Positions 1 through 19,500 of a stretch of DNA of 29,505 bases are shown here, one piece after another. How positions within the stretch are numbered: position 1 is the first letter of the stretch; the number at the start of each line of letters is the position of its first letter. A model generated the notes under the pieces. The model was not told the origin of the DNA, ran no database searches, and was given only the letters and a program-made list of their open reading frames with translations. A program made the translations under genes and the position numbers. Source of the stretch: a virus; the IMG/VR virus record IMGVR_UViG_3300030085_004084, positions 1,899 to 31,403 of that record; one strand, written 5' to 3'.

Positions 1-393
1 GACTTTGAGTGTTATACACGGGACCATGGTATTGTCAAAGGTGAATACATTTGTACTTTAGATAATTACCATCAAGATCCTGATGCAGTTGATTATGCAA
101 CATCAGAGAATCCTGCTGAACATAAGTCACATAACTTGATTGAACTTGACAATGGACAGTTTGCACTGTATCCAAACAATCGAATGCGTATCTATGATAA
201 CAGTTTGACACCTGAAGATCCAAAGATGCCAGACTTCAAGGTATCAACGATTGAGTATTCTGTAGAGAATGGTTTTGATCGTCTTGGTATGGGACGAGAG
301 GATGAATACTTCTGGAAAACCTCTAAGGAACGTCAGGAGGAGGATACAGTTGATATGTATCACTCACAAGATGGACGTTATGCTGACCCATAG
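1..393 (+). CDS. Unrecognised structural-cluster protein, C-terminal part (5' truncated by window edge)
   Basis: The frame is open from the first base to the TAG at 391-393, giving about 130 residues. No start codon in this frame precedes the ATG at 136, so the gene very probably begins upstream of the window. The visible part is acidic and aromatic-rich. It contains PNNRMRIYDNSLTPEDP followed by MPDFKVSTIEYSVENGFDR and ends in a charged tail (KTSKERQEEDTVDMYHSQDG). No signal peptide, membrane segment or catalytic motif is visible. It lies just upstream of gp25, a position that in T4-like cyanophages commonly holds gp5/gp53-type baseplate genes and small conserved hypotheticals. A virion or virion-assembly role is inferred from position only; I cannot name the family. 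Confidence 0.85.
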   Translation, partial: DFECYTRDHGIVKGEYICTLDNYHQDPDAVDYATSENPAEHKSHNLIELDNGQFALYPNNRMRIYDNSLTPEDPKMPDFKVSTIEYSVENGFDRLGMGREDEYFWKTSKERQEEDTVDMYHSQDGRYADP

Positions 394-603: not shown

Positions 604-1005
604 GTGCCAGCACAAAGGACCAGTAAAGCGTTTCGTGACGTGAGTGCCACTTTTCAGGTTAATCCCCTGAATTTTGACATCGTCTCACTCCGTAATGAGA
701 ATGCGATTGCGAGATCAGTTCGTAATCTCATTCTGACAATTCCTGGTGAGAGACCATTCAATCCTGTTCTGGGTTCAAATGTTTATAAGTTATTATTTGA
801 GAACTTTGATTCACAGACAGCATTTGCAATCAGAACTCAGATTGAGATTTGTCTTAAAAACTTTGAACCAAGAATTGCTGTAGAAAAGGTGGATGTAGCA
901 CCTGACTTTGAAGCTCATGAGTTCAATGTCACGATAACATATAAAATCGTTGGTATTGAAGCAGAGATACAACAACTCCAGTTCGCATTAGAACCCACTA
1001 GGTAA
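604..1005 (+). CDS. gp25: Baseplate wedge subunit gp25
   Basis: This 133-residue protein matches the usual length of T4 gp25 (132 aa) and the gpW/gp25 lysozyme-like fold family, a non-enzymatic core component of contractile baseplates. Signatures are SVRNLILTIPGERPFNP at about residues 38-54, then a segment ending in LFENFDSQTA, and NFEPRI at about 86-91. These parallel T4 gp25 segments GIITTRKGSRPFDP, LFENMTPLTA and NYEPRI. The start is GTG at 604. No ATG occurs anywhere in the frame, and an in-frame stop at 577-579 closes it upstream, so GTG is the only sensible start giving full length. gp25 forms the core bundle of each wedge with gp6 and gp7 and contacts the first sheath ring. gp6 starts one base after its stop codon. 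Confidence 0.95.
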   Translation: MPAQRTSKAFRDVSATFQVNPLNFDIVSLRNENAIARSVRNLILTIPGERPFNPVLGSNVYKLLFENFDSQTAFAIRTQIEICLKNFEPRIAVEKVDVAPDFEAHEFNVTITYKIVGIEAEIQQLQFALEPTR

Positions 1006-1006
1006 G

Positions 1007-2908
1007 ATGCCTTTAGTAAATTTCAGTAGTGTCGATTTTGATGAGATTAAACAATCCATCAAAGATTACCTCAAGTCAAACTCCGAGTTTACGGATTATG
1101 ATTTTGATGGATCAAACTTATCGACCATCCTAGACACGTTAGCATATAACACATACATTGCTTCATACAATGCCAACATGGTATCGAATGAAGTATTTCT
1201 TGATAGTGCGACTCTGAGAGAAAACGTTGTATCAATTGCAAGAAATATTGGATATCTCCCTCGTTCTAGAAAATCATCAAAAGCCAATATCAGTTTTTCA
1301 GTTGATGCATCTGGATCAAACACTGTAGCTGTTACATTGAAAGCTGGTCCTGTTTGTTTGAGTTCTTCTACGTTTGCAAAACAATCATTTACATTCTGTG
1401 TGATGGAAGACATCACTGTTCCTGTAGATTCAACTGGAACTGCGGTCTTCTCGGACATTGAAATTTGTGAAGGTTCATATTTGACACAGACATTCGCTGT
1501 CAACTCAAGAACACCGAATCAAAGATATGTCTTACCAAATGCTGGTATCGATACTGACACCATCAATGTTATTGTGAGAGAGACACAACAATCATCTGTC
1601 AAGAGAAAGTTCATTCAATATGATAGTTTAATTGGTGCTGGTAAAGATACACCTCTTTATTTCTTGAGAGAGACTGAGGGTGAGAGATATGAACTGTTGT
1701 TTGGTGATGGTGTCTTTGGTGTTCCTGTAGAAGAACCAAACTTCATTGAAGCATCTTACCTTTCATGTAGTGGTGCAACTCCAAATGGTATTTCATCATT
1801 CTCATTTGCTGGTAGACTTCTCGACAACAATGATAACCCACTCACTGAGGGTATTTCTGGTGTTACTGTCAATAGAGCATCAGGTGGTGGTGATTCAATC
1901 GAGAGTGTTGAATCGGTTAAGAAACTGGCACCTAACATCTATGCATCACAACATAGAGCTGTTACAGCATCTGACTTTGAAACTATTGTTCCAAGAATCT
2001 ACACTGAGGCTGAATCAGTAACATCATATGGTGGTGAAGAACTTGACCCACCACAGTTTGGCAAAGTCTTCATCAGTATCAAACCATATAATGGTGTTTT
2101 CTTATCTGAAGAAGTAAAGAGAAATATTCAACTTCAACTTAGAAAGTATTCTGTAGCTGGTATCATTACAGAAATCACTGATCTGAAGTATCTGTATGTT
2201 GATGTTGAATCGAACGTTTACTATGATACAAATAAAGCAGATGGAGCAGCTCAAGTTAGATCAGCTGTCACTAATAACCTTATAAAATACGCTGATTCTA
2301 CTCAGTTAAATAAGTTTGGGGCTAGATTCAAGTATAGTAAATTTGGAAAGGTTGTTGATGATAGTCATGAGGCTATTACATCAAACATTACCACAATCAA
2401 CATGAGAAGAGACTTAACACCTTCTCTCAATCAGTTTGTAGAATACACTCTGGGATTTGGTAATCGTGTTCACCTCAAGAGTGAAATTGGATTCAATATT
2501 AAGTCATCTGGATTCACTGTAAGTGGTATCAGTGGCACTGTTTATATGAGTGATGCACCAAATGCAGATCTGACTACAGGAACTATCTTCCTGTTCAAAT
2601 TATCTTCTCCAACTGAACCAGTCATTGTCAAGAGAAACATTGGAGTCATTGATTATGTTAAAGGAATCATCAAACTGAATCCACTGAACGTATTATCAAC
2701 TGAAGTTACTCGCGGAACAAGTCTCATTGAGATTTCCGCCTGTCCTTTCTCCAATGATGTAATTGGTCTTCAGGACCTTTACTTACAGTTAGATACTCAA
2801 CAACTGACTGTCAATATGATTCCTGATTCAATTTCATCTGGGGCTGACGTATCAGGTGGAAATTACTCTGTAACATCCAGCTATTCAAACGGATCACTAA
2901 CACGATAA
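1007..2908 (+). CDS. gp6: Baseplate wedge subunit gp6 (Baseplate J family)
   Basis: At 633 residues it is close to T4 gp6 (660 aa). The N-terminus (MPLVNFSSVDFDEIKQSIKD, then YDFDGSNLSTILDTLAYNTY and NEVFLDSATLRENV) is the usual helical gp6 start seen in T4-like phages and related to P2 gpJ. The central segment ELLFGDGVFG, followed by AVTASDFETIVPRIYTEAE and VFISIKPYNG, is typical of the Baseplate J region. gp6 dimers bridge adjacent wedges and form the continuous inner baseplate ring that rearranges when the sheath contracts. The ATG is one base after the gp25 stop, and the next gene begins six bases after its own stop, so the three are probably co-translated from the late transcript starting near 590. 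Nothing looks truncated. Confidence 0.95.
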   Translation: MPLVNFSSVDFDEIKQSIKDYLKSNSEFTDYDFDGSNLSTILDTLAYNTYIASYNANMVSNEVFLDSATLRENVVSIARNIGYLPRSRKSSKANISFSVDASGSNTVAVTLKAGPVCLSSSTFAKQSFTFCVMEDITVPVDSTGTAVFSDIEICEGSYLTQTFAVNSRTPNQRYVLPNAGIDTDTINVIVRETQQSSVKRKFIQYDSLIGAGKDTPLYFLRETEGERYELLFGDGVFGVPVEEPNFIEASYLSCSGATPNGISSFSFAGRLLDNNDNPLTEGISGVTVNRASGGGDSIESVESVKKLAPNIYASQHRAVTASDFETIVPRIYTEAESVTSYGGEELDPPQFGKVFISIKPYNGVFLSEEVKRNIQLQLRKYSVAGIITEITDLKYLYVDVESNVYYDTNKADGAAQVRSAVTNNLIKYADSTQLNKFGARFKYSKFGKVVDDSHEAITSNITTINMRRDLTPSLNQFVEYTLGFGNRVHLKSEIGFNIKSSGFTVSGISGTVYMSDAPNADLTTGTIFLFKLSSPTEPVIVKRNIGVIDYVKGIIKLNPLNVLSTEVTRGTSLIEISACPFSNDVIGLQDLYLQLDTQQLTVNMIPDSISSGADVSGGNYSVTSSYSNGSLTR

Positions 2909-2914
2909 GAAATA

Positions 2915-5900
2915 ATGACATTAGATAGAGTAAAATTCCAGGATGTAGTTGCTGATCAACTTCCTGCCTTTATCAAAGAGGATTTCCCATTACTCGTAGA
3001 CTTTCTGGAACAGTATTATGTTTCAGTAGAAACTCAAGGTGCTCCGTTTGACCTTCTCAATAATATTGACAAATATGTTAATGTCGAACAACTGACAGGA
3101 CTGACAGCAAATGCAGTTCTTTCAGAAGACATTGATACTATAACAGATACAATTAGTGTTGGTGTTGCTGGAAACTTTACTGAAGGTTTCCCTAAAAGGA
3201 ATGGTCTAATTAAAATCGATAATGAGATCATCTCATATGAATCTAAGACTGACACATCTTTTGAAGGATGTGTCAGAGGATTCAGTGGTATCACCACCTA
3301 TACTACTGATACTCCCGATAGATTAGGATTTCAAAGTACTTCTATCCCCAGCACACACAGTGAAGGTGCAGTAGTAGAAAATCTGAATGTACTGTTTCTT
3401 CAGGAGTTCTTCAAGAAATTAAAACTGCAATTAAGTCCTGGTTTTGGTGATAGAAAGTTAAAGACTGATGCAAAGAACTTTATCATCAACAGTGATAGTT
3501 TTTACAAGACAAAGGGAACAGATACATCATATAAAATTTTATTTAAAGCTCTGTTTGGTGAAACTGTTGACATCATTCGTCCAAGTCAGTTCCTCTTCAG
3601 ACCATCTGATGCATCTTATAATGTAACAGAGGATATCGTTGTAAAGAAAGACATTGGTGATCCACTCGACCTCAAGAATCTGACACTGTTCCAAAAGTCT
3701 TCTGGTGCCCGTGGAACTGTGACTAATGTAAATCAAGTTCAGTATGGTGGTGGAGATTACTATCAACTGAGTATTGACTCAGGTTATGAAAGAGATATCA
3801 ATACAAGACAGGGAACAATTTTTGGTACATTCCAACCAAACCCCAAAACTAAGATTCTTGAAAAGATTGGTGCTGGAGCAACTATCATTGATGTTGACTC
3901 AACTGTAAGTTTCCCCACAACTGGAAAACTGAGAACAGTTGATATTGATGGTAATGACGTATCAATTGCATATACTGGAAAGACTTTAACACAGTTTTTG
4001 AATGTATTTGATGTTCCCTCTACAATTGCATCAAAAACAGATTTAAGACTTGATGATTACTCCTATGCATATGTTGGTATTGGAACTGATGAGGAGATCA
4101 GAGTTCAAGTTACATCAACATTGAAAGAACTTGAAATTAAAGGTAAGAACTACTTCTTTAATAAAGAAGATACAGTACAAATTAAGTCATTCGGTATTGA
4201 AGATGAATCAACTCTCGCATCAAGATGGTTGGTCAATGCAAAATCTAACTATGAAGTATTTGATGTAAGTGTTATCGATTTAATTGCAAACAAATATGCA
4301 ATAACAACATATGATGAACATGACCTAGAGCAAGGTTATCTTGTTGAGATGACTGATAATGCTGGAAATGTAGTTAGAGCAGATGTTACGGATGTCACTG
4401 GTAAGACTACTCTTAATATCAAATCATCAGCACCCCTTAATCTAAGCAGTACTTATATTCTTGAGAATCAACTTCTCAGACCTAATTCTACTACATACGG
4501 ATATCTTAACTCCTCTACTGCAAACGTACAGAACACTTATAGTAAGTTTGATGGTGATGTTATTGTTGCAAGTAATTCATTACCAAACTATGTCAATGAA
4601 CCAATAAACCCATATAATAAGTCATTGAAGTTCACTGGTGCTGCTTTACCTAATGCATCAGATACCATTGACTTTCAAACGAATCATGGTTTCTATACTG
4701 GTGATGCTGTATTTTATAAACCAGCAATCATCACAACTACAACCGTAACACCTAACGGAGTTACATTAGTAACAACCACAGAGAGTCAGTTTGAAAATCT
4801 TGAATCGGCTGTATACTATGTGAAGAGAGTAAACAGCACACAAATTAAACTCTCAAGAAGTAGATCAGATATTTTCAGAGGTGTCTTTGTAACTTTCTCT
4901 GGAAGTGTAACAGATAACGAATTTACATATTATAACTTCTACAACAAACCCATTACACCACAAGGGATTTACAGAGAATTCATAACACCAATTAGAGAAG
5001 CTGGTGATTTCCAGACACTTCCTGGTTACAATGGAATGTTCATCAACGGTGTTGAACTGTTGAACTATAAATCAGATGATACTGTATTTTATGGACCAAT
5101 TAAGAGTCTTGATGTAACTGGTCAAGGAAGTGGATATGATATCATAAGCCCACCTCGATTTGTAATCAATGACACGATTGGTAGTGGTGCTACTGGAACT
5201 GCAGCAGTTGAAGGTATCTTAGAAAGAATTGATATTATTGATTCTGGATTTGATTTCCTTAAAACACCAGTTGTCAGGATTTCTGGTGGTAACCCAGAAG
5301 TAGAAGCAAGTGCAGAGGTCAATGTTTCACCAGTCATCTATGAGGTGAACATCAATACCGAGAAAAATGGTAATATCAATCATGAAACTGATTCTATTGG
5401 TTTCTCAACATTCCATAGATTCAAACAGAATGAGAGAATCATTTATGATACCAAGGGGATGAGATCAGTTCCAGGTCTCTCAACTAACTCTTCTTACTAT
5501 GTGAACGTCGTTGATAACTTCAATATTCAACTCCATAACACTCCAGCAGACTCCCAAGCAGGTATCAATACGATAACCTTTAATATTGGTGAGTATGGTC
5601 AAGGAACCCAGTCTCTCAGATCATCAGAAAGAAAGAATATTGTAACTAATGTAATTGTTACTAACTCTGGTAAGGGATATAAAAATAAGAAGAGAGCTGT
5701 TGTTGCAACTGGAATCAACACAGCCACAGATGTAATTAGTATCACCAAACATGGTTATAGTGAAGGTGAAGTTATTCAGTATGCAGCTGGATCAACTCCA
5801 ATTGAAGGTTTATCGACCTCTGTCGATTACTATGTCAGAAAGATTGATAATAACTCATTCTCTTTGAGTGAAGTAGGTACAGGTGCTACGAATGCGAAGT

Positions 5901-8900
5901 ATTACTATGAACATGATATAGTAACCGATCTCAAGAGTCAAGGTGATGGTAATTTCAATTATCAACCTATTACTGTTAGTGTTGAAGGAGTTACTGGAAT
6001 CACCACTCGATCTGGTCAAGATTTTCAGTGTAAGATTCAACCAGTCTTTAGGGGTCATATTGACTCAGTTGACCTGACTGCAGAGGGAACTGATTATGGA
6101 TCTTCCGAAATCCTCAATTTCAACAGACAACCTGAGTTTGTATTTGAAGGTGGTAAATTAGCTCAGGCAACACCAGTTATTAATAATGGTCAAATCGTTG
6201 ATATCATCATTACAAATCCAGGTAGTGGTTACGTTTCACCACCTAATATTACAATCACTGGTGCTGGTAAATTTGCAAAACTTACACCAATTCTTGAGAA
6301 TGGTAGACTATCAAAAATTATCATTGTCGGTCCAGGTGTTGACTATGTTGCTGGTGAAACATTCCTTACAATTACAAACCCTGGTGTTGATGCATTAGTT
6401 GAAGCTGAGATTAATGAGTGGAATGTCAACCTCTTCACTAGAAACTTCGATGCTGTTGGAGAAGATGATGGTTTTGTGGAGGAGAACTTGGCTAATGATT
6501 CTACACAATATTGTCACATCTACACACCAAGACCTCTTAGAGAATCGACATATGTTCTCACAACGAATGGTGAGACTTTCTATGGTATAGCTGATCTTGA
6601 AAAAGCTGGTGGTGTTGAAGTTACTGGTGGATTCCACTCCCCTATTCTTGGTTGGGCATATGATGGAAATCCAATCTATGGTCCCAATGGATACACAGAT
6701 AGGTCAGGTGGTGTTGTCAAGCAACTGAAGTCTGGATATAACCTTTCAGTAAATCTAACTAATAGACCACCTGTTGGTATATTCCCTGAAGGTTTCTTTG
6801 TTGAGGATTATCAATTTACTAATGAAGGAGATCTCGATATCCACAATGGAAGGTTCTGTGTCACCCCAGATTTCCCCAATGGTACATATGCTTACTTTAC
6901 TACGTTAGAGACGTTTGTAGACGCTTCTGGACCCTTTAAAAACTACAAGAGACCAGCTTTCCCATATGTCATTGGTGATACCTTACATTCAAAGAGAAAT
7001 GAGTTCAATTACAAAACCACTTCAAACCAAATTGACTATGATATTCAAAATGGTGAGTGGTTTAGAAACACAGCTGTATACAACACCAACAGTAAGAACA
7101 GTGGATATGATTACATCTTTGATTCCAATAAGATCAAGAAACAAACTATTGACGTAACAGCGTCATCTCTCGGTGTATTGAGTGGTGTTGGTATTGTTAC
7201 TGGTGGTACAAACTATCAAGTTGGTGATGAATTAGTATTTGACAATAGTCAATCTAGTGGTAGAGCAGCTCAGGGTAAAGTATCATCCATTGAAGGAAAG
7301 AGAGTCGATACTGTAAGTGTAGCCACAACTCAGATAGACAATATTGAATTCAACAAATACTTCTCTCTGAATCAGTTTATCGGATTTAGTTCAACACCAC
7401 ACAACCTGAACAACCTCGATATATTGAACATCGATGGTCTATCAACTTATTATAAAGGGTTTGATGGCTCTTATCAAATCGGTGTTAGAAGTGACACCTT
7501 CATAACCACTCTTGGTATTGGTACGACTGGAACCACTGGTCTTTCCACATACTTCTATATCTCTGGTGCTTTGGAATTCCCATTCATCAGACCAAATGAC
7601 ATTTTAGGAATTGGTACAGAGAAAGTTAAAGTTCTGAATATTGATGAACAGACCCAGAGAATTCGTGTTCTGAGAGAACAAGAGGGAACGGTTGGTTCTG
7701 CCCATACCAATAAATCGGTCCTTACACAAGACTCTAGGAAGTTTACAATCAATGTAGGATCTATCACTACAGAGAAGTATTTTAGAGTCAATGAGGAACT
7801 GTACTTTGAACCAACAGAAGCTGTTGGTATTGGAACAACAACTGGTAATGGTGTCGGTACAGTAGTAACATTCAGAAACCCAGGTGTTGGTAAATCAACT
7901 ATCTTTATTGATCCACAAGCCATTTACTACAGAAATCATGGTATTAAGATTAATGATGTAGTCACATATGCAACAAACGGTGGAACATCTCTTGGTGTTT
8001 GGAATGGTATCTCGACAACTTACACAAGTCTCGATGAATATGATGTTCTTTATGCATCACCAATTTCAAAAGACTTTATTGGAATCTCTTCTCACAAAGT
8101 TGGTATTGGTTCTAGTGGATATGTTGGTATTAATACCACCACAGGTCTATTCTTCTTCACAAGTTTAGGAACTGGTGATCATCACAGCTTTAAGACTCAG
8201 AGAACGGACATCTTACAAGCATCAGTCAATAAGAACGTTGTCACTGTATCTACGGCATCAACTCATGGTCTCAATCTCAATGATAAGGTAAATGTAACAA
8301 TCAAACCAACAGGTGATCAAACTGTTGATGTGAGATATGACGACTTCAACAGAAGAATTGTATTCGACCCAATTACCTTCACTTCAGGTAATGTTGATAC
8401 ACAAATCAACACCGTCACAGTTACCAATCATGGATTCAGAGTTGGTGAAAAGGTAATCCACACTTCTAGCAATCCAGCTGGTGGTCTTGAGAATGAAGTA
8501 ATGTATTATGTTATTCCATTCGACACCAACAGAGTTAGATTTGTCAAACATAAGTTTGAGGTTCTTGAACAGGAACCTTCGTTTGTCAATATCACATCAC
8601 AAGGTTCTGGTGGTACACTTTCAAGAATCAACCCTCTGGTCACAACTAGAAAGAACAATAATCTTAAATTTGATCTTAGTGACTCATCACTCTCTTTCCT
8701 TTCTAATGGAGTGAGATATCCAGCATTCAAGATGAGAATTTATCTTGATCAAGAGTTCAACAAAGAGTTTGTTACTACTGGCAAAAAAGAGGATAAGTCC
8801 TTTGAGGTTACAAACACTGGATCCGTTGGAATCGATTCAGATGCAAATCTGACAGTTGAAATAACCGATGATGTTCCTACCAGACTATACTATAAGTTTG

Positions 8901-11900
8901 ATCCTATCAACCTTGATCTTATTCTAGAAAATAAGAGAGGAATTGTTATTGATGATGATGACTCTGCGTTTAATCAAATTAACATAGAAAAGAGCATCTA
9001 CAGTGGTCAACACAGACTGACAGGAGCTGGTAATACAGAATTCACCTATGAAGTCACCACAACTCCTGAGGTTTCGGTTTATACAAGATCAAATTCTGAA
9101 TCATCCTACACCACTAATGCCACCAATCCATTTGGTGCAATTGCTGATGTTAATTTGACTAATTCTGGTAACAGTTATAGAAGACTACCAAAGATTTCCA
9201 GAGTTATAAGTGGAATTGGAACAGATGCTATCTTAGAAGCTCAATCCAATACTATTGGAAATATTCTCCAGAACAGATTTGATTCTGAGAACATTGGTTT
9301 CGATTATCCAACTGACGAGACACTGAGACCTGTTGCTAATCTCCCAGAGATTCTTCAGTTGGAGTCATTGACATCCTTTGAATCCATTGGTATCACTTCG
9401 TTTGGAAGGAACTACTTACTACCAGCTGAACTTGTAGTTATTGATGGATACACTAAGAAAGTTCTTCCAGAAGTAGATATTAGATATGAGATTGGTGATC
9501 CAAAGGTCAAGATTTTCAACAACACCACTGGAATGTACAACGTTCCACCAAGAATTGTTCCAGTCAAGAACAGTAATGGTGTTGGTATTTCATCACTGAC
9601 TTTTGACAGTACGACAAAGATTGTAAGACTCTTTTTGGATCAGTCTTTCCCAACAGCTAGAGACTTCCCATTTGTTGTTGGTAAGAAGATCCTCGTAGAA
9701 AACATTAGTATTGGTTTTAATTCTACTGGACAAGGATACAACTCCTCAGATTATGACTATAATCTTTTCCCTGTAACCACTGTGTTCCCACAGTTGGGTG
9801 GTAGTGGAGCATACATCGAATATAGTCTCAAAGACTATCTTGAAGTTGGTGAAGAACCTGGAAATGTCGTACCACTCACAAATCTTGGTAGAGTAGTTCC
9901 AGAGGAACATTTCCCACTGTTTGAGACTACTCTTGGAACCAATGACTTCCTCTTAGGTGAGACTGTGGTCAATGGTAATATTGAGGGTGAAGTTGAAGCC
10001 TGGGTAAGTAATATCGAACAACTTAAGGTTTCTACACCTAAGGAGTTTGGTCTTGGTACGGTAGTCAGAGGTTTGAGTTCAAACACTCAAGCTGTTATTC
10101 TGAAGAAGTGGGACTTCGACGCTGAGATTACAACTGGTGTTGGTGCTACTGTAGTTCGTGGTTGGCAGAATAACGCTGGTTTCTTGAATGATAATCTCCA
10201 AAGATTACCCAATAACGAATACTATCAGAGATTCTCATATTCACTCTCCTCCAAAGTTCCCTATCAGGAGTGGGATGAGGTAGTAACTAGTCTGAACCAC
10301 ACAGCTGGTTTTGCCAAGTTTGCTGATTATCAACTTGAGAGTATTGAGTCTGATCCAGGTGGAGCAATTGCTAGACCTAAGGATTCTAACATCGAAGTAA
10401 TTGTCGATATTATTGGAGAGGCTGATCTCAATTGTGTTTATGACTTCGACTTAGTATCTGAGGGAACCCAGTATGTCAATGGTGTACTGGCCTCTAATGA
10501 AATCTTCTTTGAGAACAAGATTCTTACAGATTACTTCCAGTCTGTCGGAAACAGAGTCCTTTCTATTGATGATGTTAGTTATCTCTTCAATAGTAATGAA
10601 AGAGGAGAAGCATTTGAACCAATTGCAAGATATGACACCAATTACATCTTCAATAAGATCTTTACGTTCGCTAAAGATAATGTTTATACAGATGAAAGAC
10701 AATTCTCTATTGTCAATTTGATTCAAGACAGCACTCTTGGGTATACCAATGAGTATTCGATTATTGAGACATATCCAAGACTTGGTTTCTATGATTATGG
10801 TAGAGCTACCGATGGTTGGGATTTGACTTTTAATCCAGTCAAGTTTGAATTCAACACATATAACACCTCAACTCTGGCATTCAGTCTCCTTGATGGTGTA
10901 TCTGGTATTGGTTCACAAGCTCTTGGTAATATTGTTGACATCACTGGAAAACAAGTCAGTGTTTCAACTGGTACAACTACAACAGTTGCATCTTTCCCAA
11001 CAACCAATAGAGCAGCTAAGATTCTGACAATGGTTGAAGCAACCTCTGGAATCGCATCTGGTAGATATGACGCTACTGAACTCAATATTGTTCATGATGG
11101 AACTACGGTATCTCTACTTGAATATGGTGACATGCAGAACACCATTGACAATTATGGTAGTAGCACTGGTTTGGGAACATATCATTCCTACATTGATGGT
11201 GGACTTGTCAAGATTGATTTCACCCCATCTGTTGCTGGAACAATGGAATCTCAGACTTCAATGACCTTGATTTCTGACTCTGGAACAACCGTAGGTTTGT
11301 TCAACTTTGACGTATCCCAAATTAATTCTACTCATACGGCAATTTCAGCCTCTGGTTCACCATCGGCTACAGTGGTTTCCACTTATGCCACTCCTTATGA
11401 GTCAGCCTATCATATTGTTCTTGTTAAGGATACAACAAACAATTTGTATGAGATGTTTGAGTTCGCCATGATTGATTCCTCATCAAATGAGGCATTTGTT
11501 GAGTTTGGTAATATCGGTCCTAGCCTTGGTCAGGTTGGTATTACATCAGTAGGAACAGCCAAGAACGTAACATATACACCAAACGCCAACATTGACGTAG
11601 AAGTCAAGATGTTTGGTATTCAGATGAAGATCTTTGATGGTAACTCAGATCCTCAAGAAATCGATATGAACAATGTTGTTCTTACTTCAGATAATGATCA
11701 ATATAGAGGAACTAAGTTAGACCTTCAGACATCTTTTGGTCTCTACCATGATGGTTTTGAAATCTTCAGAAGAGTCTTTGATGGAAGTAGTGCATCTATT
11801 GTAGATACTGGTACAACTTCTATCAATGTTCCAAATCACTTCTTTGTAACTGGTGAAAAGGTTCTTTACACTCATGTTGGAACTGGATCTTCAAACGCTA

Positions 11901-14900
11901 TCGGTATTGCAACAACTAGTGTTGCTGGAGTTAGTACTGATAAACTTCCTAATGAACTTTTCGTTGTCAAGATTGATGATGTGAAGATGCAGTTCGCTGA
12001 GACAGCAGCTAAAGCAAACGCATTACCACCTGAAGTTCTTTCAATTAACTCAGTTGGCGTAGGTGCATCTCATGTTATTACATCCACCAACCAGAATGCA
12101 AAAGCTCTGGTGGCTATTGACAATATGATTCAGGCACCAGTTACTGACACGGCTATCAAAACTACTCTACATGAGGACATTTTATTCCAACAAGAATTTA
12201 GTGTTACTGGTATTACATCCTTTGCTTCTGACGACATTATCAAGATTGGTAATGAGTTTATGATTACTGAAGGTGTTGGTATTGCTGGATCTACTAGATT
12301 TAGTGTAAGAAGAGCACAACTTGGAACTGAATTAGAATCACATGGTATTGGAGCTACAATCACTAAGATTGGTGGTAACTATAACATTGTTGGAAATAAC
12401 ATTGTCTTTGCTTCTGCACCATTTGGTAACACACCACTGAGTACAACATCAGCAGCTAGCCCAGATCAAAGAGATTGGACAGGTATCACAACTAGTTCCA
12501 CTTTCCAAGGTAGAACATTCATGAGAAGGTCAGCTGTCAACTCTGTGACAGAAACCTATTCCATGAACTATGTCTTTGATGATGTTACTCATCAATTCAA
12601 TGGTATCACTAGTTCTTACACTCTGAAACAGAATGAACTCAACACAACTGGGTTCTCTACAGATAATGGTATCATCTTAGTTAATAATATCTTCCAAGTT
12701 CCAGAGGGAGCACAGGCTGGTGATGGGTCATATCAACTGGAAGAGTCCGTTGGTGTAACATCAGTCACTTTCACTGGTATCGGTATTACTAATGGTTATG
12801 ATCCAAACTCTGGAGACTTACCAGTTGGTGGAGTTATCGTTTCAGTCGGATCAAGTTCTGGATTTGGTTATCAACCACTGGTATCAGCTGGGGGAACAGT
12901 TACAGTTTCTGCAGCGGGTTCAATCACTGCTGTAAGTATTGCTAATAGTGGTTCTGGTTATAGAACTGGAATTCAAACAGTTGTAAACGTTGGGGTCCAG
13001 ACTGATGGTGAACCAAGTCTTCACTTCATTGGCACTGCAGCAATCAGTGGTGGTAACATCGTCAGTGTCGCCATTACCAATCCAGGAACTGGTTACACTG
13101 GAACTAACTTACCAGAGGTGGTGTTTGATGATCCAATGTCATATGACAATATTCCTCTCCAATATAGTTCTTCTGGACCTATTGGAGCTGGCAAGAGCGC
13201 ATATGTCAATGTTGTAGTTGGACAAGGTTCTAGTGTAATTGACTTTGAGTTCGTATACACTGGTTACGCATATGGTGAAGGTGAGATTCTGACAGTTCCA
13301 GTTGGTGGCACTGTTGGTATTCCAACTGTCTCTGGAGCATCATTTGAAGAGTTTGCACTTACCATAGATCGAATCTACTCTGATAGATTCAATGGTTGGT
13401 CAGTTGGTCAATTACAAGTTCTTGACAAGTTTGATGATCTCTTTGATGGATTCGTCAGAGATTTCAGACTCCAACTGAATTCAAATTCAGTATCGATTCA
13501 AGCAGATAGGGGTTCAAGCATCGATGTTGACCAGACACTTCTGATCTTTATCAATGATGTTCTTCAAGAACCAGGTAAAGGTTTTATCTTCAAAGGTGGT
13601 AGTACTGTTGAATTTACAGAGGCACCAAAACCTGGTGATACTTCTAAAGTTCTGTTCTACAAAGGTAGTGGAGATGTTGATGTTATCTTCACTGATGTTC
13701 TTGAAACTGTCAAGGTTGGTGACACTCTCAACATTGACAATCTCCCACCATTACAGGGGGATATCCTTGATCAAGATACTAGAACTATCGTTGGTATCAA
13801 CACTTTGGATTCTATAGAAACTAATAGTTACTTTGGTCCTGGTGTTACCAGTGACAGAAGTACTACTAGACCTGTAACTTGGTGTAAACAAACTGTTGAC
13901 AAGGTTGTCAATGGTCGTCAGGTTGGAAAAGATAGAATTCAATATGAGCCACTTGTCTATCCATGTTCCTATTTGACTCAACCTGTTGGATTTGGTTCTA
14001 CAGAAGCTTATGTTTCTACTCTGAGACCTCTGTTTGATTCAAACAATGAGAATCAAGTAAGAGACTTCCAGAAGGTCATCACAATTACATCACAGGATAA
14101 TATTGTTGGGGCTTCTGGTACAGCTACCGTATCTGTTGGTGGAACTATTTCCGCTATCACAGTAACAACGGCTGGTGTTGGATATACTGTAGCACCAACA
14201 GTCACGATTGGTTCTACGGATGGTGTTTCGACAAACGCTGTCGCGACAGCTACTCTCACAGGAGATACAGTCACATCAGTAACTGTTACAAATGGTGGTG
14301 TTGGTTATGTTACAACTATTGTCCCACCTGTTCTCTTTGAAGAACCAAGAATTAAGAAGGAGGAGATCAACGTATCTTCTTATGAGGGAGACTATGGAAC
14401 TATCATCGGATTCACAACAGCTAAGTCTGGTTCACAGGACAAGATGACATTTGACCTGTTCATTCCGTTTGATTCGTTCTTGAGAACAACAGCCTATGTT
14501 GGAACAGCGATTACAGTAAGTTCTCTTGATGTCGGTGACTTCTTTACACTTTACAACACCAACATTCAGGCTGGTGTTGCTTTGACCACTCAGGATAACG
14601 CTGGTAACACGTTATCAACAGCATCTACTTTCTCAGACGCTGTATATCAAGTACAAAGTGCATCAACTGTTCAGATGACAGTATCTGGTGTATCTACATA
14701 TGTAAGAAGAATTGAAACCAACGTAACTGATCTTGGAACCGTCAGTTTCGGTTCAACAACCACTGGTAACTTCAGTTGGGGTAAGATTATGTTTGAGGCA
14801 AGAACGAACCCTCAGGAGTTCCCATCCTACCTCTCTGATGGATATGTTGGTGTTTCTACATCTGGTGTTCTCTCTAGAAAGAATCCTCTGAAGTACATTA

Positions 14901-14917
14901 ATTATATACAAATATAA
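2915..14917 (+). CDS. Giant YHYH-domain virion/baseplate protein (VrlC-like; gp7/gpI-position protein)
   Basis: A single uninterrupted 4000-residue frame. Residues 1-225 are a helical domain. It has FIKEDFPLLVDFLEQYYVS near residue 19, FLQEFFKKLKLQLSPGFGDR near 160, and FYKTKGTDTSYKILFKALFG with the KGT at 200-202. The KGT-plus-helix segment resembles that of P2-type tail protein I, and the gene follows gp25-gp6 just as gpI follows gpW-gpJ in P2. This suggests the N-terminus supplies the gp7-like wedge core. A YHYH domain lies at about 1198-1365 (GWAYDGNPIYGPNGY from 1246). The rest is beta-rich, with several GxGY repeats (near 730-790, 908-930, 1047-1170, 3302-3405, 3746-3818), HGFxxGE...YYV repeats, and a segment SLNHTAGFAKFADYQ near 2460. 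Only about seven cysteines occur. Related giant proteins in T4-like cyanophages are often labelled VrlC. A structural role is well supported; the receptor or fibre role of the periphery is inferred. Confidence 0.9.
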   Translation: MTLDRVKFQDVVADQLPAFIKEDFPLLVDFLEQYYVSVETQGAPFDLLNNIDKYVNVEQLTGLTANAVLSEDIDTITDTISVGVAGNFTEGFPKRNGLIKIDNEIISYESKTDTSFEGCVRGFSGITTYTTDTPDRLGFQSTSIPSTHSEGAVVENLNVLFLQEFFKKLKLQLSPGFGDRKLKTDAKNFIINSDSFYKTKGTDTSYKILFKALFGETVDIIRPSQFLFRPSDASYNVTEDIVVKKDIGDPLDLKNLTLFQKSSGARGTVTNVNQVQYGGGDYYQLSIDSGYERDINTRQGTIFGTFQPNPKTKILEKIGAGATIIDVDSTVSFPTTGKLRTVDIDGNDVSIAYTGKTLTQFLNVFDVPSTIASKTDLRLDDYSYAYVGIGTDEEIRVQVTSTLKELEIKGKNYFFNKEDTVQIKSFGIEDESTLASRWLVNAKSNYEVFDVSVIDLIANKYAITTYDEHDLEQGYLVEMTDNAGNVVRADVTDVTGKTTLNIKSSAPLNLSSTYILENQLLRPNSTTYGYLNSSTANVQNTYSKFDGDVIVASNSLPNYVNEPINPYNKSLKFTGAALPNASDTIDFQTNHGFYTGDAVFYKPAIITTTTVTPNGVTLVTTTESQFENLESAVYYVKRVNSTQIKLSRSRSDIFRGVFVTFSGSVTDNEFTYYNFYNKPITPQGIYREFITPIREAGDFQTLPGYNGMFINGVELLNYKSDDTVFYGPIKSLDVTGQGSGYDIISPPRFVINDTIGSGATGTAAVEGILERIDIIDSGFDFLKTPVVRISGGNPEVEASAEVNVSPVIYEVNINTEKNGNINHETDSIGFSTFHRFKQNERIIYDTKGMRSVPGLSTNSSYYVNVVDNFNIQLHNTPADSQAGINTITFNIGEYGQGTQSLRSSERKNIVTNVIVTNSGKGYKNKKRAVVATGINTATDVISITKHGYSEGEVIQYAAGSTPIEGLSTSVDYYVRKIDNNSFSLSEVGTGATNAKYYYEHDIVTDLKSQGDGNFNYQPITVSVEGVTGITTRSGQDFQCKIQPVFRGHIDSVDLTAEGTDYGSSEILNFNRQPEFVFEGGKLAQATPVINNGQIVDIIITNPGSGYVSPPNITITGAGKFAKLTPILENGRLSKIIIVGPGVDYVAGETFLTITNPGVDALVEAEINEWNVNLFTRNFDAVGEDDGFVEENLANDSTQYCHIYTPRPLRESTYVLTTNGETFYGIADLEKAGGVEVTGGFHSPILGWAYDGNPIYGPNGYTDRSGGVVKQLKSGYNLSVNLTNRPPVGIFPEGFFVEDYQFTNEGDLDIHNGRFCVTPDFPNGTYAYFTTLETFVDASGPFKNYKRPAFPYVIGDTLHSKRNEFNYKTTSNQIDYDIQNGEWFRNTAVYNTNSKNSGYDYIFDSNKIKKQTIDVTASSLGVLSGVGIVTGGTNYQVGDELVFDNSQSSGRAAQGKVSSIEGKRVDTVSVATTQIDNIEFNKYFSLNQFIGFSSTPHNLNNLDILNIDGLSTYYKGFDGSYQIGVRSDTFITTLGIGTTGTTGLSTYFYISGALEFPFIRPNDILGIGTEKVKVLNIDEQTQRIRVLREQEGTVGSAHTNKSVLTQDSRKFTINVGSITTEKYFRVNEELYFEPTEAVGIGTTTGNGVGTVVTFRNPGVGKSTIFIDPQAIYYRNHGIKINDVVTYATNGGTSLGVWNGISTTYTSLDEYDVLYASPISKDFIGISSHKVGIGSSGYVGINTTTGLFFFTSLGTGDHHSFKTQRTDILQASVNKNVVTVSTASTHGLNLNDKVNVTIKPTGDQTVDVRYDDFNRRIVFDPITFTSGNVDTQINTVTVTNHGFRVGEKVIHTSSNPAGGLENEVMYYVIPFDTNRVRFVKHKFEVLEQEPSFVNITSQGSGGTLSRINPLVTTRKNNNLKFDLSDSSLSFLSNGVRYPAFKMRIYLDQEFNKEFVTTGKKEDKSFEVTNTGSVGIDSDANLTVEITDDVPTRLYYKFDPINLDLILENKRGIVIDDDDSAFNQINIEKSIYSGQHRLTGAGNTEFTYEVTTTPEVSVYTRSNSESSYTTNATNPFGAIADVNLTNSGNSYRRLPKISRVISGIGTDAILEAQSNTIGNILQNRFDSENIGFDYPTDETLRPVANLPEILQLESLTSFESIGITSFGRNYLLPAELVVIDGYTKKVLPEVDIRYEIGDPKVKIFNNTTGMYNVPPRIVPVKNSNGVGISSLTFDSTTKIVRLFLDQSFPTARDFPFVVGKKILVENISIGFNSTGQGYNSSDYDYNLFPVTTVFPQLGGSGAYIEYSLKDYLEVGEEPGNVVPLTNLGRVVPEEHFPLFETTLGTNDFLLGETVVNGNIEGEVEAWVSNIEQLKVSTPKEFGLGTVVRGLSSNTQAVILKKWDFDAEITTGVGATVVRGWQNNAGFLNDNLQRLPNNEYYQRFSYSLSSKVPYQEWDEVVTSLNHTAGFAKFADYQLESIESDPGGAIARPKDSNIEVIVDIIGEADLNCVYDFDLVSEGTQYVNGVLASNEIFFENKILTDYFQSVGNRVLSIDDVSYLFNSNERGEAFEPIARYDTNYIFNKIFTFAKDNVYTDERQFSIVNLIQDSTLGYTNEYSIIETYPRLGFYDYGRATDGWDLTFNPVKFEFNTYNTSTLAFSLLDGVSGIGSQALGNIVDITGKQVSVSTGTTTTVASFPTTNRAAKILTMVEATSGIASGRYDATELNIVHDGTTVSLLEYGDMQNTIDNYGSSTGLGTYHSYIDGGLVKIDFTPSVAGTMESQTSMTLISDSGTTVGLFNFDVSQINSTHTAISASGSPSATVVSTYATPYESAYHIVLVKDTTNNLYEMFEFAMIDSSSNEAFVEFGNIGPSLGQVGITSVGTAKNVTYTPNANIDVEVKMFGIQMKIFDGNSDPQEIDMNNVVLTSDNDQYRGTKLDLQTSFGLYHDGFEIFRRVFDGSSASIVDTGTTSINVPNHFFVTGEKVLYTHVGTGSSNAIGIATTSVAGVSTDKLPNELFVVKIDDVKMQFAETAAKANALPPEVLSINSVGVGASHVITSTNQNAKALVAIDNMIQAPVTDTAIKTTLHEDILFQQEFSVTGITSFASDDIIKIGNEFMITEGVGIAGSTRFSVRRAQLGTELESHGIGATITKIGGNYNIVGNNIVFASAPFGNTPLSTTSAASPDQRDWTGITTSSTFQGRTFMRRSAVNSVTETYSMNYVFDDVTHQFNGITSSYTLKQNELNTTGFSTDNGIILVNNIFQVPEGAQAGDGSYQLEESVGVTSVTFTGIGITNGYDPNSGDLPVGGVIVSVGSSSGFGYQPLVSAGGTVTVSAAGSITAVSIANSGSGYRTGIQTVVNVGVQTDGEPSLHFIGTAAISGGNIVSVAITNPGTGYTGTNLPEVVFDDPMSYDNIPLQYSSSGPIGAGKSAYVNVVVGQGSSVIDFEFVYTGYAYGEGEILTVPVGGTVGIPTVSGASFEEFALTIDRIYSDRFNGWSVGQLQVLDKFDDLFDGFVRDFRLQLNSNSVSIQADRGSSIDVDQTLLIFINDVLQEPGKGFIFKGGSTVEFTEAPKPGDTSKVLFYKGSGDVDVIFTDVLETVKVGDTLNIDNLPPLQGDILDQDTRTIVGINTLDSIETNSYFGPGVTSDRSTTRPVTWCKQTVDKVVNGRQVGKDRIQYEPLVYPCSYLTQPVGFGSTEAYVSTLRPLFDSNNENQVRDFQKVITITSQDNIVGASGTATVSVGGTISAITVTTAGVGYTVAPTVTIGSTDGVSTNAVATATLTGDTVTSVTVTNGGVGYVTTIVPPVLFEEPRIKKEEINVSSYEGDYGTIIGFTTAKSGSQDKMTFDLFIPFDSFLRTTAYVGTAITVSSLDVGDFFTLYNTNIQAGVALTTQDNAGNTLSTASTFSDAVYQVQSASTVQMTVSGVSTYVRRIETNVTDLGTVSFGSTTTGNFSWGKIMFEARTNPQEFPSYLSDGYVGVSTSGVLSRKNPLKYINYIQI
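5101..6420 (+). repeat. GxGY / HGF-type beta-repeat stretch within the giant protein
   Basis: Residues about 730-1170 of the giant protein hold divergent copies of the GxGYxxxPxVxI repeat: VTGQGSGYDIISPPRFVI, IIDSGFDFLKTPVVRISG, VTNSGKGYKNKKRAVV, DLTAEGTDYGSSEILNF, ITNPGSGYVSPPNITITG and IVGPGVDYVAGETFLTI. They are interleaved with two copies of the HGF...YYV repeat (827-880 and 942-989). Copies are similar at protein level only; I see no exact DNA repeat, so they are old or strongly diverged. Confidence 0.75.
6500..7010 (+). other. YHYH domain in the giant virion protein
   Basis: About residues 1198-1365 of the giant protein. It starts with YCHIYTPRPLRE, continues to GWAYDGNPIYGPNGYTDRSG (from residue 1246), and then FCVTPDFPNGTYAYFTT and FPYVIG. 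These are the landmarks of YHYH proteins, a family found in bacterial secreted proteins and marine phage structural proteins. Two of the protein's few cysteines (YCHIY and RFCVTP) lie here and could pair. The biochemical role of the domain is not established. Confidence 0.8.
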
Positions 14918-14959: not shown

Positions 14960-16519
14960 ATGGCAGCGATAATCACTGATCAACTTCGTATTTTGAATGC
15001 TAGGAACTTCGTAGTTGGAGTTCAGTCGGCATCCAACTCATACTATGCATTCATTGGACTTCCCAACGCGACTGACTATCAGTCAACTTGGGATACCAAT
15101 CCTCCTTCACCGAAGGATAATCTCAATGAGTCTAATGACTATTGGGATACAATGCTTGCTATGAAGAAGATTTCTTCTAGTGATGTTAGTCAAGTAGTCA
15201 GGAAGAGCACCTGGTCATCTGGTGTCACCTATGACATGTGGAGAAATGACATCAGTAGAGATAATCCATCTCTGCCATCTGGTTCTTTTGACATCTATGA
15301 GGCTAATTATTATGTGATGAACTCTGATTTCAGAGTTTATATTTGTCTCTTCAATAATGCCAACCCTGAAAATAACTTCCAAGGTGGTCCATCTCTTGAT
15401 GAACCCACATTCACAGACTTAGAACCCAGAGCAGCTGGTTCAAGTGGTGATGGATACATCTGGAAATACCTTTATACTATCAAACCAAGTCAAGCGATCA
15501 AGTTTGACTCTACTGACTACATTCCAGTCCCAACAGATTGGTACGATGTTGGTAGTGACAACGCAGCAATGAGGCAAAACGCTTCTACAAGTGGTCAACT
15601 TAAGGTTGTAACTGTGAAGAATCGTGGTGTTGGACTGGGAACAGCCAATATCACTTATACGAGAGTACCAATTGTTGGTGACGGAACGGGTGCAGAGGCT
15701 ACTGTGGTCGTAAATAACGACTCAAAGGTCGATTCTGTCACTATTTCAGCTGGTGGTTCAGGTTATACGTTCGGAACAGTTGATCTTGTTGGTGGTGGAG
15801 TTCCAGAAGGGACTACAAAACCAGTTTTTAACGTAATCATTCCTCCAAATGGTGGTCATGGTTACGATATTTACCGTGAATTGGGTGCATACAACGTACT
15901 TACATATGCACGTTTTGAGAATGACACTGAAAACCCTGATTTTATCACTGGAAACCAGTTTGCAAGGGTTGGATTGGTCGAAAATCCACAAGCATACAGT
16001 TCATCCACCGTTTTAAACCTCGATAAGGCTAGTGCAGTCACTGCATTGAGACTTACTGGAGTTGGATACAGTTCAGCTACGTTCACAGCTGACGATTATG
16101 TGACTCAAACTGTTGGATTGGGTTCAACGGCTGTCGGTAGAGTCGTTTCTTACGATCAAACTACTGGTGTTCTCAAACTGTGGCAAGATAGAACGACAGC
16201 AGGATTCAATAGTGATGGAACTTTGAACGCAGGTCCACAATTTGGATTCAAAGCTCATAAATTTACCTCAGATATATTAGCTGGGGGAGCATTTACAATC
16301 GTAGGTGGCTCAGTCAATCTCGGGATTGACACTGTGTTTACAGGTGTAAGTACAGTAATAAATAATAGGACATATTACTTGGGTCAAAGTTTTACTTTTG
16401 GTGTCGCACAACCAGAAGTGAACAAATATTCTGGAAATACCATCTACGTTGACAACAGACCTTCTGTCACAAGGTCTTCATCCCAGAAAGAAGACGTAAA
16501 GATCATCTTGCAATTCTAA
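14960..16519 (+). CDS. gp8: Baseplate wedge subunit gp8
   Basis: gp8 is a dimeric component at the periphery of the wedge, linking gp7/gp10-type arms to the core in T4. The match rests on GDGYIWKYLYTI at residues 163-174 (T4: GDGYVWEYLFEI) and the C-terminus IYVDNRPSV...KIILQF (T4: IYMENRPPI...NILFTF). The PPNGGHGYDIYRELGA segment from residue 295 and the following NPDFITGNQFARVGL are typical of cyanophage gp8. At 519 residues it is about 185 longer than T4 gp8 (334). Much of the excess is at residues 205-290, which hold one or two beta-repeat units (ISAGGSGYTFGTVDLVGGG around 265) of the type found in the neighbouring giant proteins and in gp14. It has its own late promoter motif, and the next gene starts nine bases after the stop. 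Confidence 0.93.
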   Translation: MAAIITDQLRILNARNFVVGVQSASNSYYAFIGLPNATDYQSTWDTNPPSPKDNLNESNDYWDTMLAMKKISSSDVSQVVRKSTWSSGVTYDMWRNDISRDNPSLPSGSFDIYEANYYVMNSDFRVYICLFNNANPENNFQGGPSLDEPTFTDLEPRAAGSSGDGYIWKYLYTIKPSQAIKFDSTDYIPVPTDWYDVGSDNAAMRQNASTSGQLKVVTVKNRGVGLGTANITYTRVPIVGDGTGAEATVVVNNDSKVDSVTISAGGSGYTFGTVDLVGGGVPEGTTKPVFNVIIPPNGGHGYDIYRELGAYNVLTYARFENDTENPDFITGNQFARVGLVENPQAYSSSTVLNLDKASAVTALRLTGVGYSSATFTADDYVTQTVGLGSTAVGRVVSYDQTTGVLKLWQDRTTAGFNSDGTLNAGPQFGFKAHKFTSDILAGGAFTIVGGSVNLGIDTVFTGVSTVINNRTYYLGQSFTFGVAQPEVNKYSGNTIYVDNRPSVTRSSSQKEDVKIILQF

Positions 16520-16528
16520 TAAGAAATC

Positions 16529-19500
16529 ATGCCACAGGAAACTAACCTTAACGTTGCTCCTTATTTTGACGACTTTGATCCGCAGAGTAACTATTATAAA
16601 GTTCTGTTCAAGCCAGCGTATCCAGTCCAGGCTAGGGAGTTAAATAACCTTCAATCCATTCTTCAAAACCAAGTTGAAGACATGGGAACCCACTTCTTTA
16701 AAGAAGGGGCTAAGGTTATTCCTGGTCAGTTGACTTATCTGCCTAATTTTTATGCTATTCAGATTGAACCTGAGTTTTTAGGTGTTCCTGTATCATTATA
16801 TGTCCAACAGTTAGTTGGTAAGAAGATCACTGGTGCCACATCTGGGGTAACAGCCGAAGTTGTAACATATATCACCGATCAACAGTCTGATAGAGGTGTC
16901 TATACCCTTTATTTGGACTATCATGAGTCGTCTACCTCCGACAATGCGACTCAAACGTTGTTAGACAACGAAGTTCTCCTCACAGGAGACAATATTACCT
17001 TTGCAACGACATTTATTGCCGCTGGAGAGGGTTTTGCCAAGACATTGACCAATAATGCCAACGCTGTTGGTTCTGCTTTTGCTCTGAGTAACGGTGTTTA
17101 CTTCCTCAGAGGATTTTTCGTCGATGTTGAGGACCAAATTCTCATCCTTGACCAATATGAGAACAAACCAAATTACAGAATTGGTCTAAATGTCACTGAA
17201 ACTCTAGTTTCATCGGATGTTGACCCATCTTTGAATGATAATGCTAAAAATTTCACTAATTTCACCGCTCCTGGAGCTGATAGACTTGAAATTACTGCAT
17301 TTTTGGCGAAAAAGGCTAGAGATGACTTCAATGATCAAAATTTCGTCCAATTAGCGGAAGTTCAGAACGGTATTTTAAGAGAAACCAATACCGCGACTGA
17401 TTATAATTTCCTTGGAGACGAATTAGCAACAAGAACCTTTGATGAATCTGGTCATTACTATGTAAAAGAGTTCGTATCGACTGTCAGAGAGAGTTTAAAC
17501 AACGGATTCGGAAATAGAGGTATCTATAATCAGAATCAAACCACTACAAATGGTAAAACACCCTCTGAGGACCTCATGGTCTATAAAGTGGGACCTGGTA
17601 AAGCATATGTAAGAGGATATCCCGTTGAAACTCTTGGACCAACCTTCTTAGATGTCCCAAAAGCAAGAACAACTCGCAATATAACTGGTCAATCCGTTAA
17701 TTTTGGTTTTGGACCGTCATTCAGACTCAATAATGTCTCTGGATCTCCAACTTTGGGTTTTGATAACACAAATACCATTAGTTTGAGAAGTGAAAGAATT
17801 GGATCTGCCAGAACAGACCAACATGGTGAAGAAATTGGTATTGCTAGAGTTTATGACTTTGCTTTAGAGAGTGGTAGTTATAATACAAGTAATTTACAAC
17901 TAAATCAATGGGATCTCTCCCTATATGACGTTCAAACCTACACTAAGCTCGATATTAATGAAAATATCGATCTCACCACTCCTGTTCATGTAAAAGGTGA
18001 ATCTAGTGGAGCTGAGGGTTTCATCAGACACAATGTAAGTGCTGGAACAGCTCTTACAGTCTATGATCTTAAGGGTAATTTCAATATTGGTGAAATATTG
18101 ACTTTCAATGGTCAAACCACTAATCAAAGAACAACTATTGATGTTACCAATCACGAAATCTCAGATGTTCAGTCGGTTTACAGTATTGTTGGAACATCTG
18201 GAACATTTGTTGGTGATTTGATCCCACAGACAGCGGTTACCATTGGTATTGCTTCAATTACCAAGGGTGATGTAACTACTGGTGTTTCTACAATCACAAA
18301 TCCAACACTTTCCTTCCCAGGCATCGTCACTGTAGGAAATCTTGTTGAATATTCTGATCCAATTCTCACATTACCAACACTCCTCAAAGTAACTCAAGTT
18401 AACACCAATTCTGTTCAAGTTGTTGGTGTTGAAACTGTTACAGCTTTCGTTGATGGTGGTACACCAACCTTAGATACTACAATCACTGATTTGAGAGTAG
18501 TTGAGTCATTCCCTGCACCAAGATCAAGAAATTCAAATCTTGCCGATAATGAGTCACTGTTCTCGACATTACCAAGAAAAAATGTTGATAATGTTGATCT
18601 CACGCAATCCAATCTGATAATTAGAAGACAATTTGAGGTAACTGTTGCAGACGGATCTACTGGTTCAATTAATGCAGATGCTAACGAAGTATTCTTACCT
18701 TATGATGAAGAAAGATACTGTTTAGTGAATGATGCTGGTAATATCATACCATTGTCCGAAGATAAGTTTACCTTTGCTGCTGGAAGTATACAGATCACAC
18801 TTAATAACTTGGCAACCAATGGTTCAGCCAAATTGATCGCGACACTCCGTAAATCTTCTGTAACTCCAAAGATCAAACAGAGAAATAGAGTAGTTGAAAT
18901 TGTTATTGATAAATCATCAAATCCTGGATCTGGTGTTGGAAATACAACTCTGAATGATGGTCTTCAATATGGAACTTATCCATATGGAACAAGAGTTCAA
19001 GATAGAGACATTTCACTGAACTTACCAGATGTCGTTCAAATTTATGGTGTCTTCTTAGGTGATTCAGAAACTGATGGTTCAGATCCTGAATCGCCATCAA
19101 TGACTGTTGGTTCTATGGATGGTCCAACAAACACTACGAATGATGTTATCATTGGTGAGGAGATTATTGGTTCTATCAGTGGTGCTAGAGCCATATATGT
19201 AACAAGAAAAACAGATACTTCGATCAACTTCATTTATGAGAATAGAACATCATTCTCACCTGGTGAAGTCATTAACTTCCAAGAGTCTGGTGTAAGTGCT
19301 GTCGCTTCCAACATTGTCGTCAATAGTAGAAATGTAACTCAAGACTTTAACTTCCAGACAGGTCAGAGAAAGTCACATTATGATTATTCTAGACTTATAA
19401 GAAGACAGGATGTTCAAACTCCACAGAATAAACTGAAAGTTTATTGTTTAACTGCTTCTTATAGTTCTGGAGATACTGGTGACATCACAGTAGCCAATTC

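Follow-up and report, generated by a model that had tools for sequence, protein, structure and literature searches.

The question raised by this locus is whether a single very large protein, encoded where a T4-like virus would carry gp7, is itself the wedge protein of the baseplate and, if so, how its parts are arranged. The window, by which we mean the whole stretch of 29,505 nucleotides that was analysed, comes from a virus record of 31.4 kb (IMG/VR IMGVR_UViG_3300030085_004084, positions 1,899 to 31,403), and its gene content is T4-like and cyanophage-like. The virus is a marine cyanobacterial virus, a T4-like cyanomyophage with close relatives in the Kyanoviridae. Cyanophages of the T4 type abound in the ocean, yet we have met no account in the open-licence literature of how their baseplates are built.

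An earlier note, made from the letters alone, had read the gene order as gp25, gp6, the giant protein and then gp8, and this order is confirmed. Specifically, the plus strand encodes gp25, the sheath initiator and wedge protein (604..1005; PF04965, E 3e-16; PHROG 261), gp6, the expected wedge partner with two copies per wedge (1007..2908; PF21379, E 2e-16; PHROG 219), the giant of 4000 amino acids and 435 kDa (2915..14917) and the wedge protein gp8 (14960..16519; PF09215, E 1e-12). The giant matches PHROG 2885, 'baseplate wedge subunit', with 3445 bits, and its orthologues are annotated as T4-like gp7. This tail protein also matches PHROG 4406, 701 and 19630, three families classed as 'head and packaging'. 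Further along lie a VrlC-like DUF4815 protein (16529..24145, plus strand; PF16075, E 8e-52), gp13 (24771-25634), gp14 (25641-28616) and gp15 (from 28761). The gp14 neck protein has 991 residues, against 256 in T4, and is lengthened by repeats of the GxGYxxxPxV type, which are also present in the giant. A ferredoxin-type gene, truncated at the start of the window (1-393; PHROG 3704), stands just upstream of gp25 and is likewise found near gp25 in S-8S53, S-CAM9, ACG-2014e and S-CAM1.

We propose, with a probability of about 0.88, that the giant is gp7 and supplies the third chain of the (gp6)2-gp7 wedge, and that its core is made of two parts, D1 and D2, that are split by 2171 residues, with a module of 93 residues within D1 and a further 1526 residues after D2. 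That these proteins are orthologous to gp7 is already known, several relatives in GenBank being annotated "baseplate wedge initiator, T4-like gp7". We found no earlier description in the open-licence literature of the split core, of its three growth sites, or of gp7 in HTVC008M and S-PM2, where it stands under 'structural' or 'hypothetical' labels.

The core parts D1 and D2

Two HMMs, one for D1 and one for D2, were built from compact proteins only. The D1 model matches the giant in two halves, at residues 11-59 (24 bits) and 164-245 (44 bits). The first half of D1 is helical and spans residues 1-63 (2915..3103, plus strand; helices 8-60); the second spans residues 157-245 (3383..3649, plus strand), carries the FYxxKG motif and corresponds to residues 724-760 of T4 gp7. 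Within it, at residues 196-215, is FYKTKGTDTSYKILFKALFG, and this region aligns with T4 gp7 724-760 by phmmer (E 0.006) and by profile-profile comparison (97% probability). A likeness to the 'KGT + helix + ALxG' segment of tail protein I had been suggested here; the segment is present and, given the match to T4 gp7 and the lack of any score with the D1 model among 200 shuffled versions of the giant, goes beyond chance. The same model finds residues 646-759 of T4 gp7 (37.6 bits, E 2.9e-11). When the first 262 residues of the giant were compared by phmmer with all PDB sequences only two were returned at E <=10, both of them gp7, and a 58-sequence profile of residues 1-345 matched gp7 at 9.8e-8 and 4e-6. 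Moreover, hhalign against a T4-type gp7 profile gave 97% probability, with residues 189-316 of the giant placed on T4 727-831. In contrast, profile comparison gave no match to gpI of phage P2 (hhalign 0.1%), which is partly because the P2 relatives used were near-identical.

Compact proteins that occupy the same slot, among them those of Pseudoalteromonas phage XG4 (419 aa) and contig L157 (503 aa), revealed a second conserved stretch, YYQEFSY...HPAG. Its counterpart in the giant, D2, is a beta-alpha-beta unit at residues 2417-2474 (YYQRFSYSL...HTAGF; 10163..10336, plus strand), which scores 31.7 bits (E 1.7e-9) with the D2 model, where 200 shuffled versions of the giant reached at most 7.6 bits, and is aligned to T4 gp7 at about residues 847-896. 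A whole-length MAFFT alignment of the compact proteins puts D2 of L157 in the wrong place and was replaced. Both parts were found in 103 proteins, none of which has a second D2 above 15 bits, while all 63 proteins with D1 only stop before the expected position of D2, the longest having 2469 residues. The Pfam family PF23786 (Baseplate_wedge, 284 positions) is itself composed of D1 (1-221) and D2 (about 226-282), and a combined D1 and D2 profile matches gp7 of Klebsiella phage KP1 at residues 650-895 in a single match (E 6.6e-11). On T4 gp7 itself the D2 model is weak, with 2.7 bits and about 10 bits for two relatives, and hhalign gives D2 57.6% at T4 847-896, a weak match but one in the right position. 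PF23786 scores 20.4 bits on the giant as a whole protein and 27 bits in the genome search, where neighbours are in frame, the curated cut-off being 27 bits. The two features by which T4 gp7 and members of PF23786 are recognised, a helical D1 with an FYxxKG-helix motif and, after it, a D2 with YYQxFSY...HPAG, are both found in the giant, and as judged from sequence its core comprises a helical D1 and a beta-alpha-beta D2 that are homologous to T4 gp7 at about residues 646-896.

Single-chain AF2 models of modest confidence were made of residues 1-345 of the giant (pLDDT 71) and of residues 1-279 of the compact homologue L157, which hold D1 and D2 (pLDDT 59). The N-terminal 225 or so residues of the giant had been described as helical, and this is true of the predicted segments 8-60 and 157-214 but not of residues from about 64 to 156, which form a beta module, with pLDDT 80-94 over residues 61-120. 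In Foldseek searches the giant model matched only two chains below 1e-3, gp7 of KP1 (2e-5) and gp7 of T4 (5e-5); the same two led for L157 (1.2e-5 and 2.1e-4) and were its sole PDB matches below 1e-3. The expected likeness of the N-terminus to gp7 was thus borne out by structure as well as by profile. The matches are local and do not describe one rigid body (TM 0.15-0.31 for both models), the low TM reflecting parts of the models that are not rigidly placed. In VIA comparisons with the L157 model all chains at Z >=4 are baseplate chains of contractile tails (Z 4.0-8.2), these being A-1(L) 8kea_c (8.2), P1 (6.5), the Streptomyces CIS (6.1), phiCD508 (5.6), phiKZ, KP1 gp7 702-898 and T4 gp7 702-896. 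With a pLDDT of 59 and Z values only in this range, the fold evidence is supportive and not decisive. Among these chains are compact gpI-class wedge proteins, namely A-1(L) 8kea_c, P1 9vzk_k and Streptomyces CIS 9gtp_A, on which the compact homologue superposes; together with XM1 gp17 they have 179-242 residues and are without the giant insertions. The proposed identity with gp7 or gpI stands for the gp7 core. No direct sequence link to P2 gpI was found, and the tie to gpI depends on the structural matches to the other gpI-class chains, which are weak.

Insertion sites and the size series

The giant had been pictured as an N-terminal core joined to a C-terminal periphery of some 3800 residues, an arrangement that needs revision; D2 had been missed. 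Since the core begins with D1 at the N-terminus and is completed only by D2, at residues 2417-2474, most of the supposed periphery is inserted within the core protein and not fused to its C-terminus. Three sites can be distinguished, all on the plus strand. Site A is the beta module of about 93 residues within D1 (residues 64-156; 3104..3382), with AF2 strands over 66-156, and is absent from compact relatives. Site B is the stretch of 2171 residues from D1 to D2 (3650..10162), defined by the D1-D2 spacing across the 103 proteins; it includes a YHYH domain at residues 1239-1332 (6629..6910; PF14240, E 4e-23). Site C is the extension of 1526 residues C-terminal to D2 (10337..14914). The beta module of site A, which accounts for the VIA matches listed for the model of residues 1-345, resembles part of the JBD30 baseplate protein, chain b (VIA Z 8.7, 2.0 A over 79 residues); F1-ATPase barrels also reach Z of about 6 to this module, which we take as a common barrel arrangement and not as kinship.

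Each site varies in size among homologues. Site A is 0 in compact forms, about 100 residues in the giant by HMM and about 600 in P-SSM4. The D1-D2 spacing at site B is 47 in L157, 47-143 across the compact relatives, about 105 in T4-like gp7, 1070 in S-CRM01, 2171 in the window and 2800 in P-SSM4, and site C ranges from 14 to over 2500 residues. Total lengths run from 419 (XG4), 503 (L157), 896 (Melnitz), 1016 (HTVC008M) and 1454 (S-CRM01), through 3032 (the S-CAM1 type), 3048 (S-PM2) and 4000 (the window), to 6376 (Syn33), 6422 (ACG-2014b), 6619 (S-SZBM1) and 7312 (P-SSM4). The slot, gp25-gp6-X-gp8, is retained from compact to giant forms, with the window giant at X, and a series of 419 to 7312 residues that always lies between gp6 and gp8 shows one protein enlarging at three sites. 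Growth of the wedge protein can in this way be traced site by site. On contig L027 (618-3113) the gp7 frame ends after 832 residues, unlike in all close relatives, possibly through a frameshift or an assembly error.

Close relatives are S-B05, S-8S53, S-CAM7 and S-CAM9. Identity to S-B05 is 63-75% in the core and 45-47% in the inserts; to S-8S53 it is 48-54% in D1, 32-37% in the inserts and 43% in D2, where the contrast is smaller. The T4-like gp7 proteins of the Kyanoviridae S-B05, S-8S53, S-CAM9 and P-SSM4 (PHROG 2885; 3884-7312 aa) have the same slot and the same D1 and D2, with an identity to the giant over the N-terminus of 59% (S-B05) down to 31% (P-SSM4). There is no categorical difference between them and the giant, which joins them as a new member, and the split of the core goes unremarked in their annotations. 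Gp7 of T4 (PDB 5IV5) and KP1 (9F4A) likewise lies between gp6 and gp8, with D1 at about 646-760 and D2 at about 862-896. In T4, however, the extra mass is mostly N-terminal to the core (residues 1-640), whereas in the giant it is found inside D1, between D1 and D2 and after D2. The split core thus provides coordinates for interpreting future baseplate maps.

gp7 in related phages

The search for PF23786 covered the window record, which is a fragment, together with 15 phage genomes that are complete or nearly so (P-SSM4, S-8S53, S-CAM7, S-CAM9, ACG-2014e, S-CAM1, S-CRM01, S-H34, ACG-2014b, Syn33, Melnitz, XG4, S-SZBM1, S-PM2d and HTVC008M). The window record gave one match, the giant, and the 15 genomes matched only in the gp7-slot protein; the earlier view that no other gp7 candidate lies between gp6 and gp8 is upheld, and none was seen outside the slot in these relatives. 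S-CRM01, taken as a single-locus query, gave two loci only. The partial record of S-B05 has no PF23786 match, and its gp7-slot protein has D1 and D2 by the purpose-built HMMs. In S-SZBM1, a protein of 615 residues labelled 'baseplate wedge initiator' (S-SZBM1_205; L278 8260-10107) might have been a second gp7 but was dismissed, since it has no PF23786, D1 or D2; the label looks wrong. The 3048-residue 'hypothetical protein' of S-PM2, S-PM2d081 (L280 15531-24677), is a gp7 orthologue by position and by D1 and D2.

According to one study, cyano- and pelagimyophages lack gp7 and appear to use VrlC in its stead (PMC7029224), in which case the giant would be an unrelated peripheral protein. DUF4815 is indeed found in all relatives and not in T4. 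However, neither D1 nor D2 was found by HMM in the VrlC-like protein of the window or in S-PM2d084, and in HTVC008M, which served that study as its reference phage, the protein between gp6 and gp8 has 1016 residues, with D1 (1-42, 148-267), D2 (757-812) and a PF23786 score of 48.9 bits, above the cut-off. Together with the confinement of PF23786 to the gp7 slot in the 15 genomes, this contradicts the reported absence of gp7 and its substitution by VrlC, a reading that we regard as very improbable and already at odds with the sequences. Identification of the gp7 core corrects the published claim and accounts for several giant 'hypothetical' frames such as S-PM2d081.

Rival readings and a proposed role at the baseplate

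The layout first proposed, with a gpI-like N-terminus of about 225 residues, a C-terminal periphery and residues 2417-2474 as merely another module, draws on the fact that most of the signal from the giant to T4 gp7 comes from D1 alone. It is difficult to reconcile with the single D2 in every sufficiently long orthologue, with the joining of D1 and D2 in PF23786 and in compact relatives, and with the same D1-D2 order in T4-like gp7, and we consider it improbable. Somewhat less so, and still unlikely, is that proteolytic maturation divides the giant into a core the size of gp7 and peripheral proteins of their own, so that it is not one chain in the virion. The S-SZBM1 orthologue, S-SZBM1_208 (6619 aa), was detected in the virion proteome by 71 peptides with 13.5% coverage (PMC9146016), which does not reveal chain length; yet Pfam found no protease domain and, since the halves of the core are far apart in sequence, cleavage would leave it as two chains.

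It was also suggested that the giant carries the receptor-facing superstructure instead of gp9-gp12. In favour of gp7 doing all the jobs of gp9, gp10, gp11 and gp12, gp11 (PF08677) turned up in T4 but in none of the relatives examined, and searches for the gp9/10 N-domain (PF07880) gave nothing in S-8S53, S-CAM7, S-CAM9, ACG-2014e, S-CRM01 or S-H34. Nevertheless, a protein with this domain adjoins gp7 in P-SSM4, Syn33, ACG-2014b and Melnitz, directly after the larger gp7 (6376-7312 aa) of the first three, and is also present as S-SZBM1_206, so that the size of gp7 and the loss of gp9/10 are not simply coupled. The suggestion is too simple and only partly supported and, with the window record only a fragment, a complete takeover is doubtful, if a little less so than proteolysis.

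Under our preferred reading, that the giant is gp7 with a split core, two gp6 copies would contribute their N-terminal helices to the wedge core bundle and D1 would join them there. D2 would fold back onto D1 in space, and the insertions would project from this core round the baseplate rim as large bodies, most of them rich in beta structure. With six copies, about 2.6 MDa of a single polypeptide would be present at the baseplate, and the giant may carry or replace part of the pin and fibre apparatus of T4, so that much of the landing gear of the virus may be mounted on a single very large protein. There are precedents in simpler phages: XM1 gp17, called an orthologue of T4 gp7, holds 12 spikes by a loop and its C-terminus (PMC10457771), and the C-terminal loop of A-1(L) gp32 touches the long fibre (PMC10966104). 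In the giant, surface loops of this kind may have expanded to whole domains, among them the YHYH domain. A positional match between the spike-binding loop of XM1 (residues 80-106) and site A was weighed, and the likeness is taken as analogy only.

From these precedents, the S-SZBM1_208 proteomics, the late mutations reported in S-PM2d081 during S-PM2d chemostats (PMC9910659) and the prediction that YHYH domains are metal-dependent hydrolases (PMC7824862), we infer that the baseplate rim and some of the surface turned towards the host are made up of the inserts, which may contact the receptor. It is possible, if on balance doubtful, that sites A, B and C are growth points for a host-contact apparatus inside the wedge core, with adsorption surface and contraction trigger in one polypeptide, present in six copies and with a built-in YHYH enzyme. 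In S-SZBM1 a free-standing YHYH-domain protein, S-SZBM1_207 (L278 11634-13232), adjoins gp7, which itself also has a YHYH domain.
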